DNA of 64,000 bases from Synechococcus sp. PCC 7502. GTDB taxonomy: Bacteria > Cyanobacteriota > Cyanobacteriia > Pseudanabaenales > Pseudanabaenaceae. Shown piece after piece: positions 5,309 through 16,251 of the stretch (its first letter is position 1; the number at the start of each line of letters is the position of its first letter). Location of the stretch: assembly GCF_000317085.1 (NCBI RefSeq), contig NC_019702.1:1766394-1830393 (forward strand), written 5' to 3'. The notes under the pieces are model-generated. The model saw nothing but the letters and a program-made list of their open reading frames with translations. It was not told the DNA's origin and did not search any database. The translations under genes and the position numbers were made by a program.

Positions 5309-7630
5309 TTAGGCTTCACCACTTACATAACTATGAGGATTTTTCCAGAATTTTTCTAATGCCTTAATGCAAACTTGATCGTTATAGAGGCGATCGCTAT
5401 TATTTTTAATCTTTTCCACAATACTGGCACGCCAAGGGTGATCCAATCCCAACTTTACGGCAATGTCTATATACTCAGACTCACTAGAGGCTATGGTTTC
5501 TGTAACTTCTAACATTTGCAGCATGGCATAGCTGTGGCGACCGCGCATAAATTGAGTAGGCAGAGTGACAACGGGTAAATTACAAGAGATAGCTTCTAGG
5601 GTAGTATTGCCCCCAGACCAGTCAATGGTATCTAAAAAAATGTCAGCAATACGATTTAAGCTGAGGTATTCATCCCGATTGAGGCGGGGCATGATCAGAC
5701 AATGTTCCTCACTATTCTGATTTTGCCGGGCAAAGGCTATGTCCAACCGTTGCTTAAATTGTCGGGTCACATAGTCGCCGTTATTACTATAGATAAATGC
5801 AAATTTTGCCTTGGGTACTCGTTTAGCGATCGCCGCAAAAATATAATCGTACTTGGGCAGATATTTATATAGGGACTGACAGCACAGATAAACTATGGCA
5901 TCTTCGGAAATTTGAAATTGCGATCGCTCCAGTAGATACTGGGGAGATTCGGGTCGGGCATAGGCAATACTAAGATTGGGCAAACGAATTAATTGCTCTC
6001 GATAATGTGCCTCTGCTCCCTCTGGTTCCATTAAATCGCTAGACAAAAAGTAATCGATCGTGGGTAGTCCAGAGGTGACTGGATGTCCCCAAGCCAAACA
6101 CTGCACAGGAGCTAATCGTAAAGCTGCTACTTGAGTAGTTTCAGGGTGCATTCCAATATCGGTAAACACCAAAATATCCAGTTGATCTTGGGCAATTTGG
6201 TCAATTACAGTATCAAGGCGAGGTAGGTGGTAAATAAAATCACTGACGGCAGCAAAAGCATCGGTTGCAGGCGTAGGTAGCTTACCCGTGTAATAACAAT
6301 AAATTTCAAATTGCTGGTGATCGCAGGATTGGAGCCATCCTAAAAATAATTTACCAACGGTATGATTCCGAAAATAGTTGGAAATAAAGCCTAAGCGAAT
6401 TTTGGTAGATTTAGGTCGATTAGGATTAATTTGGGCATACTGGGGATAGGCTGCGATCATAATTCGATGCACTAGGTCGCCATACTGAGTTTGCAACTCC
6501 AGATCGTTTTGGGCTTGGTAGGCAAGGTAGAAATTAGTGGAATTTTGGATAGCTTTGACTGCCTCACTAATTTGGATGGGAGTATCTAGGGGAACGCTTT
6601 TAATCAACTGATTTAATCCCTCAATGAATCGAGTACGCCATTGGCTAACTTGGGCTGTGGTTTCATAGATAATCGGTAGCAGTAGCCAAATTTTTAACCG
6701 AGCTTCTAAACAATCTGGTTTATACATCAATGCGGTTTGAAAGGTGGCGATCGCCTCTGGGATTTTATTTTGATCCTTGAGTAAAGTACCTAGGGTAATA
6801 TACCAATCAGCACGGTCATGTTTAATTAGTAGTGCCTGACGATAGGAAAACTCTGCCTCTTCAGCCCTTGCTCTAACCGTATAGGCATTGCCGAGATTAT
6901 AGTAAGCCTCCGCAAAATCTGCTTTAAGTTCAATTGCTTTGTGATAAACCACGATCGCCCGATCAAAGTCATAATTTGCCTGTAGAGCATTACCTAGATC
7001 GTTATAAATCTCTGCGGATTGCGGCGACAGTTCCAGAGCTTTCATGTAAATATCCAAAGCCTCTAAAATCAGTCCCGACTCTTGGAGCGCATTCCCAAGA
7101 CTATGCAGAGCTTGGAGATAGTTGGGATTAATTGCCAATGCTTGACGATAGGCGGCGATCGCCTTAGTAGTATCACCTTGAGCTTTTAATAAGAAACCAA
7201 GATTATGATGTGCCTGGGCTAAATTTGGGATTAAATCTATTGCCCGTTGATAGTGAGAGATTGCCTGCTCCAGATTACCCTGAGCTTGCAAGGCATTACC
7301 GAGGTTATAGTGGGTTTTGCCATTATGGGGTTGAAGTTTTAGGGCTTTTTGGAAACTAGCGATCGCCTCTGTAAACTTACCTGATAATCGATATGCTTCC
7401 CCTAAATTGCCGTAGAAATCTGGATTGCGGGGATTAAGCTTGATTGCAGTTTCAATATAGGCGATCGCTACGTCATAGTTACCAACTTGGTGGGCAAGAA
7501 CTCCAAGTAAATGATTGGCATCAATGTGGTGCGGTTGCTGAATCAAAATCTGACGATACAGTCGCTCCGCTTCAGCTAAATCTCCCGCCTGATGATACTT
7601 AAATGCTAATTCAATGGAAAGTGTTGGCAT
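5309..7630 (-). CDS. TPR repeat protein with GT41 (OGT/SPINDLY-like) glycosyltransferase domain
   Basis: 773 residues. Residues about 5-310 are eight to nine consecutive 34-residue TPR units, recognisable by recurring YYNLGNA/IYNDLGNAL, A-L-x-P and Y-x-x-A-L-x-L-x-P patterns. The C-terminal half (about 400-765) matches the bacterial O-GlcNAc transferase/SPINDLY-like family: KIRLGFISNYFRNHTVGKLF, DILVFTDIGMHPETTQVA, LAPVQCLAWGHPVTSG, and a UDP-sugar-binding region DTIDWSGGNTTLEAISCNLP with TLPTQFMRGRHSYAML. Such proteins are thought to transfer a sugar to protein Ser/Thr residues or to glycans; the acceptor is unknown. Cytoplasmic, no signal peptide. The upstream ferredoxin gene is divergent. 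Confidence 0.88.
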   Translation of the reverse strand: MPTLSIELAFKYHQAGDLAEAERLYRQILIQQPHHIDANHLLGVLAHQVGNYDVAIAYIETAIKLNPRNPDFYGNLGEAYRLSGKFTEAIASFQKALKLQPHNGKTHYNLGNALQAQGNLEQAISHYQRAIDLIPNLAQAHHNLGFLLKAQGDTTKAIAAYRQALAINPNYLQALHSLGNALQESGLILEALDIYMKALELSPQSAEIYNDLGNALQANYDFDRAIVVYHKAIELKADFAEAYYNLGNAYTVRARAEEAEFSYRQALLIKHDRADWYITLGTLLKDQNKIPEAIATFQTALMYKPDCLEARLKIWLLLPIIYETTAQVSQWRTRFIEGLNQLIKSVPLDTPIQISEAVKAIQNSTNFYLAYQAQNDLELQTQYGDLVHRIMIAAYPQYAQINPNRPKSTKIRLGFISNYFRNHTVGKLFLGWLQSCDHQQFEIYCYYTGKLPTPATDAFAAVSDFIYHLPRLDTVIDQIAQDQLDILVFTDIGMHPETTQVAALRLAPVQCLAWGHPVTSGLPTIDYFLSSDLMEPEGAEAHYREQLIRLPNLSIAYARPESPQYLLERSQFQISEDAIVYLCCQSLYKYLPKYDYIFAAIAKRVPKAKFAFIYSNNGDYVTRQFKQRLDIAFARQNQNSEEHCLIMPRLNRDEYLSLNRIADIFLDTIDWSGGNTTLEAISCNLPVVTLPTQFMRGRHSYAMLQMLEVTETIASSESEYIDIAVKLGLDHPWRASIVEKIKNNSDRLYNDQVCIKALEKFWKNPHSYVSGEA

Positions 7631-7760
7631 AACCTAAGTAGCTTAAATAAATGAACTTAAATAAATGTATAGCTAAACACCATTACCTCCCAATCTGGCT
7701 CACAATAACAAACATAAAAAACTACATTATTCACCTAAATTTACCGAGTTAACTAAAAAT

Positions 7761-8075
7761 ATGGCAATTTATAAAGTTAGACTGATTGACGAAGCCGATG
7801 GACTAGATGAAACTATTGAAGTGGATGAAGATGAATTTATTCTTGATGTGGCAGAAGCAGAAAATATTAAGTTACCCTTTAGTTGTCGGGCGGGAACCTG
7901 CTCAACCTGCACAGGTAGGTTATTAGAAGGGGATATTAAAGAATCTGGCGGTAATCCCGATATGTTTTTTAATAAGGCACAACGGGAGGCAGGATTTAGA
8001 CTTTTATGTATTGGCTGTCCCACTTCTGACTGTACAGTATTGATTCATCAAGAACCTAATATTTCTAAATTTTAG
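7761..8075 (+). CDS. Plant-type [2Fe-2S] ferredoxin
   Basis: 104 residues. The cluster-binding pattern is FSCRAGTCSTCTG (C-x4-C-x2-C) followed by the fourth Cys in FRLLCIGCP, 32 residues after the third (29 is usual in photosynthetic PetF). The N-terminus (YKVRLIDEADGLDETIEVDE) and acidic composition are typical. Because of the longer spacing, the extra C-terminal cysteines (CIGCPTSDC) and the extended tail, this is likely one of the alternative ferredoxins of cyanobacteria rather than the main photosystem I acceptor. Soluble one-electron carrier. Encoded alone; the TPR-GT41 gene is divergent. Confidence 0.92.
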   Translation: MAIYKVRLIDEADGLDETIEVDEDEFILDVAEAENIKLPFSCRAGTCSTCTGRLLEGDIKESGGNPDMFFNKAQREAGFRLLCIGCPTSDCTVLIHQEPNISKF

Positions 8076-8229
8076 GAGTATTAATTATCCAATATGCAGT
8101 CTGATCGCTTCACAATTATTTGTCCTGGCAATCGCCAATAACTTCTCGGAACTAAACAACTAAGCGAACCATTTTCGAGTGCTTAATTTCGGCTAGAAAC
8201 GGACAACCTTAACGGGCATATTGCTGTTG

Positions 8230-8317
8230 GCATAACGGCATCGCATCAGCGGACGGCGATGCATGATAGAGATGATGATTACATGATGCCCCGTTCCGCT
8301 GCATGCAGTAGTTAGAC
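8230..8317 (-). other. attC-like recombination site (integron cassette end)
   Basis: Read on the minus strand: GTCTAAC (R''-like, fits RYYYAAC), 4-base spacer, GCATGCAGCGGA (L''-like), about 41 bases, TCCGCTGATGC (L'-like), 6-base spacer, GTTATGC (R'-like). The L boxes are complementary except for one extra unpaired G in GCAT(G)CAGCGGA, which is the extrahelical-base hallmark of attC sites. The right box fits GTTRRRY imperfectly. Total 88 bp, within the usual attC size range. No integrase gene is in the window. On the minus strand a GTTAGAC (10165-10159) lies before the C-protein gene and could be the preceding cassette junction. Confidence 0.55.
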
Positions 8318-8366
8318 ACACGGCTTAGACAAAATGCTTCCTTAGCGCCAGTTTCGTAAAATATGC

Positions 8367-8403
8367 TTGACATTTGCTTATTAATAATTAATACTATAGT
8401 ATT
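8367..8403 (+). promoter_or_regulatory. Methylase promoter with 14-bp palindrome over the -10 region
   Basis: TTGACA (8367-8372) and TACTAT (8392-8397) are separated by 19 bp, 20-55 bases upstream of the methylase ATG. The -10 element lies inside a perfect palindrome AATACTATAGTATT (8390-8403). The half AATACTAT recurs in the C-protein gene's upstream region (minus strand, as GAATACTATTGTC), so the palindrome may be a C-protein binding site on the methylase promoter. Confidence 0.5.
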
Positions 8404-8422
8404 CAAAATTTCTGGGTGACTG

Positions 8423-9118
8423 ATGTTCTACTACTACGGAAGAAAAAAACAAATAGCAAAACATTATCCCTCTCCCAACTTTGACAGGATTATAGAGCCG
8501 TTTGCAGGATCAGCCGCCTATTCACTATATGGGGAGAAATGGAAAAAGGAAGTTATTTTAATTGAGAGAGATGAGCGAGTTTCTGGAATCTGGGAATGGT
8601 TGATTAATGAGGCAACACCATCAAAAATCAAAAATTTGCCCGACTTAAGTATTGGTGAAAAAAGTTCTGAATTTCTTCACATTATTCATGCTGCTACAAA
8701 AATGGCTTTTCACTACAAGACCATTAAAGTAACTCCTGTTTTAGCAAGAAACTGGGAGATCAGTAAACGATATATGTCAGAGAATATATATAAGGTTAAG
8801 CATTGGAAAATTATTAACGGAGATTACACATTAGCACCTGAACTAGAAGCAACTTGGTTTATTGACCCACCTTACAAAGAAGATGCTGGCAGAGGTTATC
8901 GATACGGTAGCAAACTCATTGATTACAAAAAATTGGCAGAGTGGGCAAAGGAGAGGAGAGGAGAAGTCATATTTTGCGAGGGGCATTGCGGTGACTATTT
9001 GCCATTCACTCCTCTACTAGAATTAAAGGGTGTGGCAGGTAAAACCAACAAAGAAGTCATTTATTATCAATCTGAGAGATCAAACAAACAGCTTGAGCTT
9101 CTTCAACTTTCTTTTTGA
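8423..9118 (+). CDS. D12-class DNA adenine methyltransferase of a type II R-M system
   Basis: 231 residues. AdoMet-binding motif I is IIEPFAGSAAYSLYG (about 23-37) and the catalytic motif IV is WFIDPPYKEDAGRGY (about 150-164); this order and the DPPY tetrad are typical of D12/Dam-like N6-adenine methylases, though N4-cytosine activity cannot be excluded. It protects host DNA from the endonuclease encoded opposite; the two genes are convergent and overlap by 16 bp (9103-9118). HIP1 octamers are absent from the whole methylase-endonuclease-C region, unlike the neighbouring core genes, which supports acquisition by transfer. A strong-looking promoter precedes it. Confidence 0.9.
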   Translation: MFYYYGRKKQIAKHYPSPNFDRIIEPFAGSAAYSLYGEKWKKEVILIERDERVSGIWEWLINEATPSKIKNLPDLSIGEKSSEFLHIIHAATKMAFHYKTIKVTPVLARNWEISKRYMSENIYKVKHWKIINGDYTLAPELEATWFIDPPYKEDAGRGYRYGSKLIDYKKLAEWAKERRGEVIFCEGHCGDYLPFTPLLELKGVAGKTNKEVIYYQSERSNKQLELLQLSF

Positions 9119-9780
9119 ACAGAAAACTTCATAATCTTCTGGTAAGCTTCCGAATAACTCTGGTCATTAATTAATGCCACCCAGCCTTGTCCCATCTTTT
9201 GCTTACCACTTACTTTCATACCTGTAACTTTAGTGTTCCTGCCTTCTGTTCCACTGATCTCTCCCCAATCGTTTGTAGTAAGATTGTCTGCATAAAATAT
9301 AGCTGTAATTCTAGGATAGTTGAAATCATGTTCGCTCTTTACAAAGTCCCATACTAAACCCAGAAGCTTCTCAACCTCTCGATGATGAGCTTGCCAAGTG
9401 ATCCCTTCCAATGCTCCAATTCTAGGCTGTCCCGCTCTTAAATTTGCACCTTTTGTTATGTTTCCAACAGTACATTTGATTTCCAACCCTACAGGATAGT
9501 TACGCAGTTCTTCCTCTGAAGAGTTTTCACCTGCCTTTGGAATAACATCAGGATGCCCCTTTTCAATCGGATTAACCATAGCCCCCGTTGTACTTGCAAT
9601 GAATTGACAGAATATTGAGCCAACGATTGAACTTGTAGTTTTATAGTCAATATTTTTGTAAACACTTGATGGGATAATTGCCAAAAGTTCATTTGTTTGA
9701 TGCACAGCAGATTCAATATGGTGACTATTTACCTCAAATCCACAAGAAATATTTAATAGAGGGTTTATGGTGTAATTCAT
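9103..9780 (-). CDS. Type II restriction endonuclease, ScaI-like family
   Basis: 225 residues. The PD-(D/E)xK core is readable as GHPDVIP (PD near residue 79) followed 21 residues later by GLEIKCTVGN (E-I-K). The surrounding sequence (NPIEKGHPD, ITWQAHHREVEKLLGLVWDF) looks like the ScaI restriction endonuclease family to me; if right, the recognition sequence may be AGTACT, but this is from memory, not a search. The ATG (9780) directly follows the TAG stop of the C-protein gene (9781-9783), so C and R form a tight operon, the classic arrangement that delays nuclease expression after entry into a new host. The 3' end overlaps the convergent methylase gene. Confidence 0.82.
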   Translation of the reverse strand: MNYTINPLLNISCGFEVNSHHIESAVHQTNELLAIIPSSVYKNIDYKTTSSIVGSIFCQFIASTTGAMVNPIEKGHPDVIPKAGENSSEEELRNYPVGLEIKCTVGNITKGANLRAGQPRIGALEGITWQAHHREVEKLLGLVWDFVKSEHDFNYPRITAIFYADNLTTNDWGEISGTEGRNTKVTGMKVSGKQKMGQGWVALINDQSYSEAYQKIMKFSVQKES

Positions 9781-10017
9781 CTAAGATATGTCATTCATGA
9801 TTTGTTCCACCTCGGCAATTAAACTACTGGCTGTGGTGTTTAACGAATTTGAAACTTGAAACAAAACGGACAAAGTTGGGGACTTCAAACCGCGCTCCAT
9901 TTGACTAACATAGGTGCGGTGAATCCCAGCTCTGTCAGCAAGCTCCTCTTGAGAAATTTTTGCTATAGTTCTGTACTTGGCTAAAACTTTACCCAGAGCT
10001 TTATTAATGTCTGTCAT
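9781..10017 (-). CDS. R-M controller (C) protein, XRE-family helix-turn-helix
   Basis: 78 residues, the standard size of C proteins. The helix-turn-helix is KISQEELADRAGIHRTYVSQ (about 19-38) followed by MERGLKSPTLSVLF, where ERG-x-x-(S/N)PT is characteristic of this group. C proteins bind operators upstream of their own C-R operon and activate or repress it according to concentration; several also repress the methylase gene. The gene abuts the endonuclease gene without a gap. The operator candidate is 24-49 bases upstream. A GATATT at 8-9 bases before the ATG could be a -10 element, which would give a near-leaderless transcript, as seen in several C-R operons. Confidence 0.9.
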   Translation of the reverse strand: MTDINKALGKVLAKYRTIAKISQEELADRAGIHRTYVSQMERGLKSPTLSVLFQVSNSLNTTASSLIAEVEQIMNDIS

Positions 10018-10040
10018 GTATGAAATATCTCAGAAGAAGA

Positions 10041-10066
10041 GACTCTGAGTCTACAGACAATAGTAT
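10041..10066 (-). promoter_or_regulatory. C-protein operator (C-box) upstream of the C-R operon
   Basis: On the minus strand: ATACTATTGTC - TGTA - GACTCAGAGTC. The right half is a perfect GACT-N3-AGTC palindrome (10041-10051) and the centre has the GTC-N4-GAC arrangement known for C-boxes of PvuII-type systems. The left half is degenerate. It sits 24 bases before the C-protein start codon. Confidence 0.65.
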
Positions 10067-10169
10067 TCAAACGTATCTAAATCTCTTTTGAAAAGCCTTG
10101 CTGTTAGCTTATTGATGATTGAAGAGAAAAAGCTGAGGCAGGCTAATAAATGTAGTGCGTCTAACTATG

Positions 10170-10236
10170 TATTAGACGGAAAATTTCTGCCTAATCACCC
10201 AATAAGGGATATTATACGGAAAAAATCTATCTAATC
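10170..10236. repeat. Two imperfect 27-bp direct repeats, 40-bp period
   Basis: Copies at 10170-10196 and 10210-10236 share TATTA-x-ACGGAAAA and CT-x-x-CTAATC; 22 of 27 positions agree by eye. They lie upstream of the C-R operon and just left of the IS630 copy. The adjacent GTCTAA-N7-TTAGAC (10159-10177) is a 6-bp inverted repeat. Role unknown; the rest of 10067-10257 shows no gene. Confidence 0.5.
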
Positions 10237-10257
10237 TAACAACATTTAGGGGTTATA

Positions 10258-11386
10258 CCAAATCGAAGAGTATAGGCTACAGATGGTATAAATATATAAA
10301 CCGAGTTCAAAGAAAAAAATGGCAGGAGTATACAAATTAGAGATCAGCGAAAGTGAAGAAGAGCTAAAACATATGCTGAGAGTGCAAAAGACCGCATCAG
10401 ATAAAGAAAGAATTCAGATGCTGTATCTGTTAAAAACAAAACAAGCAAGCACAATCCAGACAGCATCGACAATACTGGGACGGCATCGAGTTACATTGCA
10501 AGATTGGTTAGGGAATTATCGCAAAGGGGGAATAGTAGGACTAAACCTAGAACAGGGCGAAAACAGAGTATTCCACAATGGGCGCAGAAAGCATTGATAA
10601 AAAAGCTGGAAGAAGCAGAAGGCTTTGAAAGTTATGGGCAGATCTGCCAATGGTTAGAGAACCAATTAGGAATCAAATCAAACTATAAAACTGTGCATCA
10701 TCTAGTCCGATATCGGCTGAAAGCCAGACCGAAAGTGACACGTCCAGTCAGCGCAGGAAAGTCAGAAGAGCAAGTAGAAGCATATAAAAAAACCTTGCCA
10801 GTATTATAAGCATGATTGCCTGGTTCGGCATTAATATAATCGGACTAAATGGCAAAGTGAGATTCTTTTGTCAAGATGAAACACGAATTGGGTTAAAGAC
10901 AATTAGTGGAAGGAAGATCACAGCAAGAGGAGTCAAACCCAAAGGTAAAGTTCAGTGGCAGTTTAAGGCAACTTACCTCTATGGAATTGTAGAACCATCA
11001 ACAGGGGAAAGCTTTTTCTATGAATTTACTCACCTTAATAGTGAATGCTTCCAAGTATTTCTGAACTTAGTAAGCGCATATTTTCAAGGTGACATCATCG
11101 TTATGCAAGTGGATCAAGCAGGAGCACACAGAGCAAAACGGTTAAAGATTCCTAAAAATATTATTTTGCTATTTCAGCCTGCCCATGCACCTGAGACTAA
11201 TCCCATTGAAAGAGTGTGGCAGCATTTCAAATTAGGGTTGAGGTGGAAACTGCCAAAAGATCTTGACCAGTTGCGTGCATTAATGCGGGAAAGGTTAGAA
11301 GTTATGACTCAGGAGGTAATTGCTTCGATTGTTGGGTGGGATTATATTTTAGAGGCTTTATCTGTAGCTCGTATTTAACGATTTGG
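10258..11386 (+). mobile_element. IS630-family insertion sequence, copy 1 (1129 bp)
   Basis: Bounded by inverted ends CCAAATCG (10258-10265) and CGATTTGG (11379-11386) and flanked by TA dinucleotides (10256-10257, 11387-11388), the target duplication of the IS630/Tc1 group. It contains a transposase split over three frames. It is identical to copy 2 (23865-24993) apart from about six substitutions I could see, and has exactly the same length, so the transposition event between them is recent. It has landed directly next to the remains of an SMR transporter gene. Confidence 0.92.
10319..11378 (+). CDS. IS630-family transposase in three overlapping frames (two -1 shifts)
   Basis: Frame 1 (10319-10597) holds the N-terminal helix-turn-helix (STIQTASTILGRHRVTLQDW). 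Homology continues in the -1 frame from about 10540 (TGRKQSIPQWAQKALIKKL) to 10809, and again in the next -1 frame with the DDE catalytic core (10812-11378: QDETRIGL, MQVDQAGAHR, PAHAPETNPIERVWQ, giving D, D, E). The second shift can occur at the A7 run 10786-10792, after which the frame is open through the ATG at 10812. The first shift lies between about 10530 and 10565 (AAAGGGGG or CGAAAAC are nearby). Programmed frameshifting is known in IS elements, but two shifts are unusual; the copy may alternatively be moved in trans. Confidence 0.8.
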
Positions 11387-11393
11387 TATTATT

Positions 11394-11600
11394 CTAAGGC
11401 TCAGATATGGCGTACAACCCGTAAACTCCACCTAGAATTAAAGCGATAAAAAATACTTTTTTGAAATCAAGGGATTCCTGAAAAAGTACCACTGCCAAAA
11501 TTTGTTCCAACTAAGCCAACCCCTGTCCAGATTGAGTAGGCAATTCCCACGGAAATCTGATTCAGCACCTTTGATAAGTGATAAGCTGACAACAGAGGCG
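11394..11600 (-). pseudogene. Remnant of an SMR (EmrE-like) small multidrug-resistance transporter
   Basis: Minus-strand translation gives SAYHLSKVLNQISVGIAYSI followed by WTGVGLVGTNF, which is the third membrane segment region of SMR proteins (compare IPTGIAYAIWSGVG in EmrE). A frameshift follows and the next frame continues AVVLFQESLDFKKVFFIALI and LGGVYGLYAISEP, ending at a TAG (11396-11394). The N-terminal half is missing. So it is an N-truncated, frameshifted relic. The rest of 11387-11719 contains nothing else recognisable. Confidence 0.72.
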
Positions 11601-11719: not shown

Positions 11720-13270
11720 TTATCGCACATACTTAAGGCTTTCCGTATTCTTGAAGAAGAAATCCGTGAAAAGACTAATAACAGTACGATTACGAATTTT
11801 GATGTTAGCAGATAAGGACATTCCTGACTGGAGCCGAATTTCACGCCCATTTACATTTAATGACTGCTTTTCAATGGCAATTTTAGCAGGGAAGCGATAA
11901 CTAGGATTTGATTGATCTGGAGGTAGGGCATCAGAACCAATCCAAATTAGCTTGCCCTTCACATCACCAAACTCACTAAAAGGGAATGAATCTAGCCTGA
12001 CATCTACGGGCATATTTTCTTTCACAAAGCCAATATCTTGATTGGTAATATAAACTTTGGCAATTAGCTGATCATCTGGAACGATTTTAAGAATGGTTTC
12101 TGAAGTGTTAGTATTTGCCACATAACCCAGACCAGCTTTAAGTTCAAATACTGTTCCAGACGTAGGAGCACGGAGTTCTTCATATTGCAAAGCAACTTCA
12201 GCTTGGCTAATTTGACCCGTAATTTCAGCTAGGCGTTTACTGTTATCAATTAGAGCTTTAGTTAATTGGCTATCAATTTCGGCAATACGCTTAGTATTAT
12301 CAGCAATCTGCGTAGTTAACTCTTTACGATTGACATCAAAGGTATTAGTTAAACGAGAACGTCCCTCAGCGATCACAGCTTTTAATCGCATTTCTTCTTG
12401 AGTTAATTGTTGAATTTCTGCTTCCGTATTTATGACTTCATCCTGCTGTTTGAGATATTGAATTTTAGATATTCCACCCGCTTCTGCAACTTCTTTAATA
12501 TCAGCTAAAATCTTCTGACTAAGGGCTAAGGACTGTTGACGGGCAAGGCGTTTAGTTTGAGTTTGATTTAACTGTTGAATGGATTGATTGACCACTGCTT
12601 CTGCCGCCTGTGACCTTGAACTTAGTTCAGCTTGATTAGCATTCAGGCGATCTTGCTGATCTCCCGTGAGACTTCCACCGCCACCATTTACCTGCATTCG
12701 ATACATTTGCGATTCAGATATAAGTATATTGCGGTTACGAGCAAGGTCTAAAAAATCCACAGGAATTACAGCTAGGTTAGGACTAGAAATGGGAAAACCA
12801 TTAAGAACATTGCGATAAAACTGATTTTCAGCTTGGAGATTTTGCTGTAATTTCCTTAATGAATCTAACTGGGCTTTAGTAGCGGTAGAATCTATCCGCA
12901 AAATCACCTGTCCTGCTTTGACTCGATCGCCATCTTTAACCAGAATTTCCTTAAGCACACCACTGGCAGGAGCTTTGACTTCTTTAACTGCTCCTTGGGG
13001 TTCGAGTTTGCCTTGGGCTGGGACAGATTCCTCAATACTAGCAACTGATGCCCAGATCAGACCAAAGGTAACAGAGCCAAGTAATGTCCAAATGATTGCT
13101 TGTGTCCATTTGGGAGATTGAGTTAAAACTAAGGGCTGATCAAAGGGAGCGATCGCCTCTGCATTTTTTTTAACCAAGGCATGACTATTATTACCTTGCG
13201 GAACTAAGGATCCATCAGATTCTAGTTTGGTGGTTTGAGCACTTAATTCTTGATCGTTATGATTAGTCAT
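11720..13270 (-). CDS. HlyD-family membrane-fusion protein of a type I secretion system
   Basis: 516 residues. A cytoplasmic N-terminus (about 1-57) precedes one membrane helix (about 58-80, AIIWTLLGSVTFGLIWASVA), a half lipoyl motif (EVKAPASGVLKEILVKDGDR, about 97-117), a long coiled-coil hairpin (about 140-360, Gln/Ala/Arg rich) and the second lipoyl half (ELRAPTSGTVFELKAGLG) leading into a beta-barrel C-terminal domain. This is the adaptor that spans the periplasm and links the ABC exporter to a TolC-like outer-membrane channel; no TolC gene is in the window. It lies 29 bases after the ABC gene on the same strand, so they are one operon with the PpiC gene. Confidence 0.94.
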   Translation of the reverse strand: MTNHNDQELSAQTTKLESDGSLVPQGNNSHALVKKNAEAIAPFDQPLVLTQSPKWTQAIIWTLLGSVTFGLIWASVASIEESVPAQGKLEPQGAVKEVKAPASGVLKEILVKDGDRVKAGQVILRIDSTATKAQLDSLRKLQQNLQAENQFYRNVLNGFPISSPNLAVIPVDFLDLARNRNILISESQMYRMQVNGGGGSLTGDQQDRLNANQAELSSRSQAAEAVVNQSIQQLNQTQTKRLARQQSLALSQKILADIKEVAEAGGISKIQYLKQQDEVINTEAEIQQLTQEEMRLKAVIAEGRSRLTNTFDVNRKELTTQIADNTKRIAEIDSQLTKALIDNSKRLAEITGQISQAEVALQYEELRAPTSGTVFELKAGLGYVANTNTSETILKIVPDDQLIAKVYITNQDIGFVKENMPVDVRLDSFPFSEFGDVKGKLIWIGSDALPPDQSNPSYRFPAKIAIEKQSLNVNGREIRLQSGMSLSANIKIRNRTVISLFTDFFFKNTESLKYVR

Positions 13271-13299
13271 ATCTATTTAACCTATATTGAAAACTTGCA

Positions 13300-16251
13300 T
13301 CATGATTCTCCTGCGGCTTCCTGTTGGTGATAGAGCGTATAGTAGCGTTCTTTTAGCACCATTAATTCACTATGGGTTCCCTGTTCTGCCACTCTGCCAC
13401 TATCCATCACTAAAATCAAATCTGCATTCTGAATGGTAGCAAGGCGATGGGTGATAAAAAATACGGTTCTGCCTTGGAATTCTTCGGCTAAGTTGCTACA
13501 AACCTGACGTTCAGTGTTGTAATCTAAGGCACTAGTTGCTTCATCTAAAATTAGTAATTGCGGCTTTTGTAAGACTGTGCGGGCGATCGCAATCCTCTGT
13601 CTCTGTCCACCCGATAGTGCGGCACCTCTTTCTCCAACCCGTGACTCATAACCTTGAGGCAATTGCATGATGAAATCATGGGCGCAAGCGATTCGGGCAG
13701 CATCAATAATTTCTGCGGGTGTAGCATCGGGATTAGTGAGAGCAATATTTTCTTGAACCGTGCCATCAAATAGTAATGTATCTTGCAGGACTACACCGAT
13801 CTGACGGCGCAGCGAATAAAGCTCGACTTTGCTAATATCGTAGTCATCAATTAATATCCGTCCTGATTCTGGCTCGTACAGGCGGGATAATAGCTTGGTT
13901 AAGGTACTTTTTCCTGCACCACTAGCTCCCACTACGCCCACAAATTTACCCGCAGCAACTTCTAAACTGACATTGTTTAATTGCAAACTGCCATTGGCAG
14001 CAAAACGAAAGTTGACATTTTCATAGCGCACAGTTCCAGCGATCGCAGGCATGGGGATATTACGGCGACCCGCTTCTTCTTGCTCTTGGGGGTAATTAAT
14101 AATATCGCTGAGGCGTTCGAGGGATAGGGCAGTCTCTTGGAAGTTTTGCCATAGCTGTATCAACCGTAAAAGTGGTGTTGTGGTATAGCCTGCAATAATC
14201 CGAAATGCAATTAGCTGTCCAAGGGACAATTTGTTACTCAGTACTAAATATGCACCAACCCACAGCAATAGTAGGTTAGATAATTGGTTCAAAAATTGAC
14301 TAGTCGATCCCGCGGTGGTGGAAGTTACAACAGTTTTAAATCCATCGGAAACATAACGGGCATAGCGACGTTGCCATTCCCATCGGGATTTTAATTCGAT
14401 GCTCTGTGCTTTTACCGTCTGAATTCCTGAAACCACCTCAACCAGATAGGACTGCGTGGCAGCATTACGTTCAGCTTTGCTTCGTAGTTGCCCCCGAATG
14501 ATGGGCGCAACGATAAATGTGAGCAGTGCAAATAAAGGAACTGTGCCGAGAGCGACTAAGGTTAAAAGCCAGCTATAACAAATCATTACGATGATATAAA
14601 TCACCGAGAAAACTGCGTCTAAAACGACAGTAAGAGCCGTGCCTGTCAGAAATTGGCGAATGTTTTCTAGTTCCCCAATACGGCTAGATAGTTCCCCAAC
14701 TGATCGCTTCTCAAAGTAGCGTAGAGGTAAGCGCACCAGATGATCGATGGTTTCAGAACCGAGGGTTAGGTCGATGCGATTGGTGGTATTGACGAATAGA
14801 TAGGTGCGTAAGGCACTTATCAGTGCTTCAAAAACTGAAATTGTGATTAATAGAATCCCTAGGGTATTGAGAGTCGTGGGAGCATTTTGAATGATGACTT
14901 TATCAATAATTACTTGTGTGATTAAAGGATTGGCTAGTCCTAATAGTTGGACAAAGAAGGAAGCAACTAATACCGTGATTAAAGTGTTTTTATACCGCTT
15001 GAGAGAAGGCAAGAACCAAGATAGTCCAAACTTCTGTTTTGGTGTGTCTTTGGTGGGCTGAATTAATAAAACCTGCCCTGAATCTCCCCAAATATCGGCA
15101 AACTGAGCCATCTTTTTCGTCACAATCCCTTGCTCTGGAATCCCCAAAACTAGTTCCCGATCGCTAGCTTTATAAAGTACGGCAAAGGTGTCTTGCCAAG
15201 CTAACATTGCAGGGGTAGGAACTTGAGTGATCGACCTTGTCGGAATTGTCACTAATTGTCCATTTAGTCCCATTAGTTCTGCGATCGCCCCACATACCTG
15301 CAATGACAACTTAGGTGATCTGGCAAATTGACTGTCTAATGCCCGTTTGACCACATGGCGAGCAAAAGGAACCTGCCAATATCTTGCTAACATCTGCAAG
15401 CAGGCAAGGGAAGCATCTACGGATCCACGTCCATAAAAGTGCGGGTAATCTGTACCCTTGGGATCAGGGCGATCTCCCACTGCTGGTAATTCGGGAGCGT
15501 AGGGAATATCATCGGCGGTTAGAGTCGGTATTTCTTCTACGACCTCTACTTTCACCGCAAATGCGTCGGGGATACCAATTAGTCGCACAAATCCGTTCTG
15601 TGGAACTTCAAGGAAGTCATTCCCATTTAGCGATTCAATCCGACTGCCAATTGGAGCAGGAAAATTATTGCCACCACTAACTAACCATACAAAGTCACGA
15701 TCAAGCTTAGCTAATGGTATTTTCCCCGCTTCTAACGTCATAACCACAGCTTCTGGTAGCGACTCACGCGCTAACTGAGCTGGATTGGCAGGAGACTGTG
15801 CCCGTCGCTCCATCTCTGCTGTCAAGAGGTCGAATACTTCAATCATTGATGGCTTATCAGTAAAAGCTGACTTGAAAACAGGATCGCGATCGCAAAACCG
15901 CCAAAAATCTGAAGCCTCTAGAGCCAGACATGTACTTTCAACTGAAGCAATCACCATCTCACAGGGGACATTGCGGATCAAGCTCAACCAACCAACTGAC
16001 GCACCAGATTTGAGGATATCTAAAGTTACCGGGGACGGGGACTTAGGGATTTGTCCAAGCACTCTTGCCTGTCCTTCCATCAAAAATAAAATTTGTGCTG
16101 GCATCGTCTCTCGCCGCAAAATCACCTGTCCCATGCGATAGCGTAATGGCTGTAATCGCTCACCTAATTCTTTTAGAGTAACTCGATCAATAGTCTGTAA
16201 CTCTGGGATGGAATGAAGAAAGTCTTGAATAGAGACGGTTTTAGCTGTCAT
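13300..16251 (-). CDS. Type I secretion ABC exporter with cNMP-binding and C39-like domains
   Basis: 983 residues. Order of domains: a Crp-type cyclic-nucleotide-binding-like domain (about 1-135, GQVILRRETMPAQILFLMEG), a linker, a C39 peptidase-like domain (about 265-400), six membrane helices (about 420-690) and the ABC ATPase (about 735-975: Walker A GASGAGKST near 775, signature LSGGQRQRIAIAR near 877, Walker B LLILDEATSALD). In the C39-like domain the usual catalytic Cys-Gly is replaced (VDASLACLQML where peptidases have a DCG/ECG motif), so it is probably a non-cleaving substrate-binding CLD as in HlyB, fitting RTX cargo. The cNMP-domain fusion resembles cyanobacterial HetC-like exporters. 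Two Pho-box-like octamers lie 80-98 bases upstream. Confidence 0.94.
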   Translation of the reverse strand: MTAKTVSIQDFLHSIPELQTIDRVTLKELGERLQPLRYRMGQVILRRETMPAQILFLMEGQARVLGQIPKSPSPVTLDILKSGASVGWLSLIRNVPCEMVIASVESTCLALEASDFWRFCDRDPVFKSAFTDKPSMIEVFDLLTAEMERRAQSPANPAQLARESLPEAVVMTLEAGKIPLAKLDRDFVWLVSGGNNFPAPIGSRIESLNGNDFLEVPQNGFVRLIGIPDAFAVKVEVVEEIPTLTADDIPYAPELPAVGDRPDPKGTDYPHFYGRGSVDASLACLQMLARYWQVPFARHVVKRALDSQFARSPKLSLQVCGAIAELMGLNGQLVTIPTRSITQVPTPAMLAWQDTFAVLYKASDRELVLGIPEQGIVTKKMAQFADIWGDSGQVLLIQPTKDTPKQKFGLSWFLPSLKRYKNTLITVLVASFFVQLLGLANPLITQVIIDKVIIQNAPTTLNTLGILLITISVFEALISALRTYLFVNTTNRIDLTLGSETIDHLVRLPLRYFEKRSVGELSSRIGELENIRQFLTGTALTVVLDAVFSVIYIIVMICYSWLLTLVALGTVPLFALLTFIVAPIIRGQLRSKAERNAATQSYLVEVVSGIQTVKAQSIELKSRWEWQRRYARYVSDGFKTVVTSTTAGSTSQFLNQLSNLLLLWVGAYLVLSNKLSLGQLIAFRIIAGYTTTPLLRLIQLWQNFQETALSLERLSDIINYPQEQEEAGRRNIPMPAIAGTVRYENVNFRFAANGSLQLNNVSLEVAAGKFVGVVGASGAGKSTLTKLLSRLYEPESGRILIDDYDISKVELYSLRRQIGVVLQDTLLFDGTVQENIALTNPDATPAEIIDAARIACAHDFIMQLPQGYESRVGERGAALSGGQRQRIAIARTVLQKPQLLILDEATSALDYNTERQVCSNLAEEFQGRTVFFITHRLATIQNADLILVMDSGRVAEQGTHSELMVLKERYYTLYHQQEAAGES

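Follow-up and report, generated by a model that had tools for sequence, protein, structure and literature searches.

A stretch of the minus strand in the window, by which we mean the whole 64-kb DNA analysed here (C3:1766394-1830393 of a three-contig, 3.58-Mb genome that is 99.9 % complete), appears to be an integron gene cassette that contains a complete C-controlled type II restriction-modification (R-M) system and occupies the first position in the attI site of a decayed chromosomal integron. We give this reading a probability of about 0.92. By its gene content, and by the relatives that were found for it, the genome is cyanobacterial. A preliminary description of the same DNA had already interpreted the unit as an integron cassette, and this interpretation is supported by an independent attC model match, by an attI site on the left, by a cassette start that matches and by the orthologous integron of a relative (G010). 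The elements which it listed, namely GTTAGAC, the C and R genes, the opposed M gene and the 88-base hairpin, all lie where it had placed them, and HIP1, present in 56 copies in the window, is indeed absent inside the unit (0 copies within 8230-10165). The unit which it had delimited as 8230-10165 is real, with the small correction that the cassette proper runs from 10164 to 8236. It overlooked that the left boundary is an attI site, that the integrase has been lost, that a second cassette begins at 8235 and that another R-M cassette is present in the genome. The features are listed in Table 1.

Table 1 Features of the predicted cassette and its surroundings (positions in the window), and two cassettes found elsewhere in the genome
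Feature	Position	Strand	Basis or remarks
Start of second, ORF-less cassette, own attC lost	8102..8235	minus	72-78 % identical to relatives' cassette
attC site	8230..8317	minus	R'' GTCTAAC 8317-8311; R' GTTATGC 8236-8230; sole covariance-model match in 64 kb
Predicted integron gene cassette	8236..10164	minus	1929 bp, from TTAGAC to the G of attC R'; attI before, attC at end
Probable M promoter TTGACA-17-AATACT	8367..8403	plus	dyad AATACTATAGTATT at 8390-8403
M gene, D12-class adenine-N6 methyltransferase, 231 aa	8423..9118	plus, opposed	PADLOC MTase_II 1.3e-114; Pfam MethyltransfD12 1e-4
R gene, type II restriction endonuclease, 225 aa	9103..9780	minus	PADLOC REase_II 5.9e-70
C gene, HTH control protein, 78 aa	9781..10017	minus	PADLOC Control_protein 4.1e-13; Pfam HTH_3 3.3e-14
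Probable C operator GAATACTATTGTCTGTAGACTCAGAGTC	10041..10068	minus	before C-R; kept in five relatives, surroundings not
attI site, shortened	10165..10240	minus	recombination point between 10165 (G) and 10164 (T); homology to relatives' attI
IS630-family insertion sequence	10252..11391	plus	NCBIfam transpos_IS630 8.4e-36; occupies the place of intI in relative G010
Second R-M cassette	L165 (C3:1028000-1038000) 5529-7823		attI-like sequence before, attC after; intact
UG13-type defence reverse transcriptase cassette	L166 (C3:3090000-3107000) 11941-13874		attI-like sequence before; attC at C3:3103787, 61.6 bits

The hairpin at the end of the cassette is imperfect and 88 bases long, and consists of R'' GTCTAAC, L'' GCAT-G-CAGCGGA, L' TCCGCTGATGC and R' GTTATGC. 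A G is left unpaired in L'', at the place where an unpaired base is also found in 31 attC sites of relatives, and a second unpaired base, an A, lies further inside. A covariance model was built from 31 attC sites in cassette arrays beside intI in relatives, without the window sequence, on an alignment structured as R''/R' and L''/L' pairs with the unpaired base in L''; 91 % of the alignment cells were paired, and the covariation score was 0.346, compared with 0.113 in shuffles. This model, being independent of the window, scored the hairpin that the preliminary description had called attC-like at 35.4 bits (8317-8230, minus strand, E 1.1e-5 for 64 kb), its only match in the window, and gave 0 matches in 20 other loci, 13 of them with relatives of the R gene. 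In a simple scan for the R''-L''-L'-R' pattern the hairpin reached 12.1, the maximum being 10.8 among 20 random sequences of 64 kb with the same dinucleotide composition. With 35 bits the site falls below most attC sites of the family, which score 40-80 bits, but it is sound. Free folding of the hairpin strand was no better than that of shuffles (z -0.8), so folding energy alone would not have revealed it. An Rfam scan of the window gave 0 families at the gathering score, and BLAST of the window attC against its own genome returned chance matches only.

The left boundary is an attI site, not an attC site, because the flank matches a conserved attI stretch of relatives up to the junction; the R-M unit is thus the first cassette of an integron. 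In relatives this stretch, upstream of intI, ends in GATTAGACAGAAATTTTCCGTCTAATACATAG/TTRRRY (the slash marks the recombination point), which is where the first cassette starts, and its counterpart in the window reads GATTAGGCAGAAATTTTCCGTCTAATACATAG/TTAGAC. The window attI is 81-88 % identical over 50-65 bases to the attI beside intI in relatives, with CTAATACATAG/TT identical. About 40 bases before the junction the relatives' attI contains TTGAC(T/A)-N16-TATAGT, likely a cassette promoter. This promoter-like part is missing from the window attI, from which about 43 bases have been deleted, as judged by the repeats GATTAGNCAGAAATTT.

The order on the minus strand is attI, cassette start, C, R, opposed M, attC and the start of the second cassette, with the cassette adjoining attI on its left and the second cassette on its right. 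The first bases, TTAGAC (within GTTAGAC, 10165-10159, minus strand), are the exact complement of R'' GTCTAAC of the cassette's own attC, 1.85 kb apart, and such agreement was found in 8 of 12 attI-attC pairs examined in the family. The inverted repeat that had been described as bounding the unit, TAGTTAGAC and GTCTAACTA, is accordingly meaningful in its core, TTAGAC/GTCTAA, but its outer TA is incidental, because CATAG belongs to attI. The right R', GTTATGC, differs from R'', a mismatch which is expected only if another cassette comes next. The following bases, 8235-8102, share 72-78 % identity, across 134-136 bases, with the first part of an ORF-less cassette found in relatives G026 and G042 and represent a second, truncated cassette, the attC of which is not detectable in the window. 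In G026 this ORF-less cassette, of about 217-220 bp, is repeated many times among other cassettes (L084 5581-16192), and it might carry a promoter. Truncated or degenerate copies of the G026 cassette occur in this genome at L161 and L163 as well as at 8235-8102 in the window.

The orthologous integron of G010 lies on a 7.9-kb contig with the order HlyD, broken intI, attI/TTAGAC and then cassettes ending in attC. The HlyD gene on this contig corresponds to window 11720-13270, with 64-80 % identity. Between HlyD and attI, where G010 has intI, the window contains the IS630 element, the ends of which were set by a 99.5 % identical copy at C3:1018 kb, and a gene fragment. This fragment (11405-11592, minus strand), between IS630 and HlyD, is a frameshifted piece of a small multidrug resistance (SMR) transporter gene. 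No intI remnants were found between the window attI and HlyD. A functional intI beside attI, the criterion for a complete integron, is thus absent, and IS630 stands there instead.

The intI gene was also sought genome-wide, and its only clear trace, at C3:1020230-1020412 beside smc and about 0.75 Mb from the cassette, is a C-terminal fragment that covers model positions 254-314 and scores 119 bits; a whole intI was not found in the 99.9 % complete genome at the thresholds used. The remaining IntI matches in the genome, weak and partial ones, are probably due to other tyrosine recombinases. At the fragment (L022 10192-10416, C3:1020192-1020416), IS remnants are found where the rest of the gene would be. 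One might suppose that recombination between the IS630 copies parted the window attI from the C3:1020 kb intI fragment, but this idea was set aside as unneeded, because G010 has intI at the HlyD locus itself and both IS copies point the same way. A literature search on the integrase in Pseudanabaena-type cyanobacteria returned no paper.

The R and M genes are adjacent, with open and intact reading frames that overlap by 16 bp at their 3' ends, and the ATG of R directly follows the stop codon of C. The PD...ExK motif of R (D78, E100, K102) is invariant in 11 homologues. Judging from the intact genes and the conserved motif, the R-M genes likely form a functional system. An AlphaFold model of R had a pLDDT of 80, and a fold search with it placed SfiI, EcoRV and BglI at the top, none significantly (E 0.005-0.04); comparison of R with solved structures by sequence only gave no match.

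Upstream of C, the sequence GAATACTATwGTCTGTAGACT is conserved in five relatives, the DNA around it having diverged. The dyad AATACTATAGTATT, which overlaps a probable TTGACA-type promoter, is kept in three of the five relatives and, with one change, in a fourth, and may be an operator site at the M promoter; the promoter scan gave no more sites than in shuffles. According to a review (PMC12707154), C-R is activated by C proteins, which in some systems also repress M. With its own C-R promoter, C operators and M promoter the cassette would be self-sufficient in expression, and would have no need of the integron cassette promoter that is absent from the window attI. In Esp1396I, a C-controlled R-M system reportedly described by Cesnaviciene et al. 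in 2003, the C-R operon faces an opposed M, with operator-like dyads before C and M. The gene layout seen here appears to be that of a C-controlled type II system such as Esp1396I, since both the facing arrangement and the two operator-like dyads are shared; it differs in that the genes are packaged as a cassette and in that R is from another sequence family.

The best relatives of the whole set are found in Lyngbya aestuarii, Arthrospira sp., Symploca sp. and Spirulina subsalsa (L146-L149), with the same genes, order and operators, a C-R operon facing M and proteins that are 72-85 % identical (C 79-85 %, R 72-78 %, M 77-84 %). Unlike the window, these loci have neither attC nor attI in their flanks. 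Most close relatives of these R-M genes stand outside integrons. The preliminary description had named relatives with the same hairpin outside any cassette as an observation that would count against it, and the R-M relatives outside integrons do not carry this attC in their flanks. A search for M in the other 37 family genomes found no copy, and its occurrence in only this genome among the 38 fits a recent gain. R was not found in viral contigs, and in phages and plasmids it has distant relatives only. On plasmid NC_017655.1 (L220, 110-2024), a 58 % identical R homologue is paired with a cytosine methyltransferase in the same convergent layout; the cytosine in place of an adenine methyltransferase is a partner exchange in the nuclease family.

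Further attC sites were sought genome-wide, and the model found eight besides that of the window, six of them at E below 0.01. Seven attI-like sites are present in this genome, along with about seven attC sites. The attC of the second R-M cassette lies at C3:1035737 (78.5 bits), the cassette being inserted between prfA-like and ftsX-like genes. It encodes an N6/N4 methyltransferase (1.7e-134) and a type II endonuclease (6e-201). Its first bases, TTAGGT, match its R'', ACCTAAC, and the attI-like sequence before it has a slightly altered junction.

The recombination history, the order of expression and the activity of the enzymes are inferences. An integron integrase would have joined the cassette attC to the local attI, and the insertion would have left G/TTAGAC on the left and G/TTATGC on the right, before the second, ORF-less cassette. 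Later intI would have been lost, with an IS630 copy now in its place. After entry M would be made first, and C would accumulate, turn on C-R and damp M, with the host DNA protected by M before the nuclease appears. Killing of cells that lost the cassette may then have helped to keep it.

It is very improbable that the R-M genes arrived by illegitimate or IS-mediated recombination and ended up flanked by an attI and an attC-like repeat by chance alone. An IS630 does adjoin the unit, and the position of most close relatives outside integrons would agree with such an origin, but the left end falls at the exact attI recombination point, its six bases complement R'' at a distance of 1.85 kb, attC stands at the opposite end of the genes and both flanks are integron sequences. 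A different question is whether the cassette is still mobile, its attI belonging to a set of many solo platforms on which an integrase acts in trans, here one that is outside the assembly or comes from other elements. The abundance of such sites speaks for this: besides the seven in this genome, an attI pattern search gave 65 attI-like sites in 28 of 58 genomes (0 with the reversed control pattern), about 12 of which, by our own comparison of the lists, stand beside an intI match. Many of the solo sites are followed by attC-bounded cassettes and appear to be real platforms, since 8 of 12 attI-attC pairs show the complement between start and R''. Continued mobility is nevertheless unlikely, given that the 99.9 % complete genome contains an IntI fragment only, that its three weaker attC sites are degenerate and that intI remnants beside two attI sites (L211 and L215) favour loss of intI at these two. 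We likewise doubt that the integron of this family is a distributed system, with many scattered attI platforms without their own integrase and the integrase encoded elsewhere; if it were, defence cassettes such as the R-M cassette of the window would be placed at many loci and not in one array. For a cassette in a decayed integron, the reading preferred here, no recombination can be claimed today, as intI is neither beside the cassette nor intact in the genome, and the cassette could be moved only with an integrase from outside, because no whole intI was found.

Addiction as the reason for retention of the cassette is put forward tentatively, at somewhat less than even odds, and the term 'mobile addiction unit' used in the preliminary description is to be taken as interpretation. 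That the cassette has been kept mainly as phage defence comes close to an even chance, as integron cassettes have been reported as antiphage stores in Vibrio and Xanthomonas (PMC12409362, PMC12444791) and a UG13-type defence reverse transcriptase cassette is present in the same genome. This reverse transcriptase is split into two overlapping frames, whereas both R-M cassettes are intact, as addiction predicts, although the cases are far too few for a decision.

Both R-M systems in integron cassettes and integrons in cyanobacteria are known. Work by Vaisvila et al. in 2001 is said to have described R-M systems in pseudomonad super-integrons. An attC model exists for the phylum Cyanobacteria (PMC8352920), in which integrons are known also from PMC9668308 and PMC2426708, and restriction-modification has been reported among integron cassettes in Xanthomonas (PMC12444791). 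The role of integrons as stores of antiphage systems is established by work that PMC12444791 and PMC12409362 cite. In Xanthomonas, as here, R-M genes lie within attC-bounded cassettes of a chromosomal integron; the present case differs from the Xanthomonas and pseudomonad cassettes in being a single C-controlled cassette in attI, in a cyanobacterium and in an integron without intI. Toxin-antitoxin cassettes that carry promoters of their own are believed to make super-integrons more stable (PMC2654758), and by analogy R-M systems could act in the same way.

Clusters of attC sites lacking an integrase are termed CALIN, with a default threshold of two attC (PMC12444791). The window resembles them in having attC-bounded cassettes without a nearby integrase gene, and differs in having one detectable attC and in retaining attI. 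Remnants consisting of one attC and an attI fall below this default threshold and are probably undercounted. The arrays of G026 and G010 (L084, L106) have the same attI and the same attC type, together with the ORF-less cassette in G026 and the HlyD neighbour in G010, but they contain an intI, which is broken in G010, and several cassettes, of which none has this R-M system. Less expected than the occurrence of R-M cassettes or of cyanobacterial integrons are the single-cassette state that retains attI without an integrase, the presence of two intact R-M cassettes in a single genome and the large number of attI sites in this family that lack intI. Because a whole R-M system with its own regulation is a cassette in one cyanobacterium and not a cassette in others, the step from resident genes to cassette is open to study, and two intact R-M cassettes amid decayed integrons allow a test of whether addiction modules persist after the decay of the integron with which they arrived. 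The first cassettes at two solo attI sites of relatives (L216 3590-5640, L208 738-2498) gave weak or clear matches to defence families, namely DUF262-type proteins and a NADAR-like protein, which suggests that cassettes of this family are rich in defence genes.
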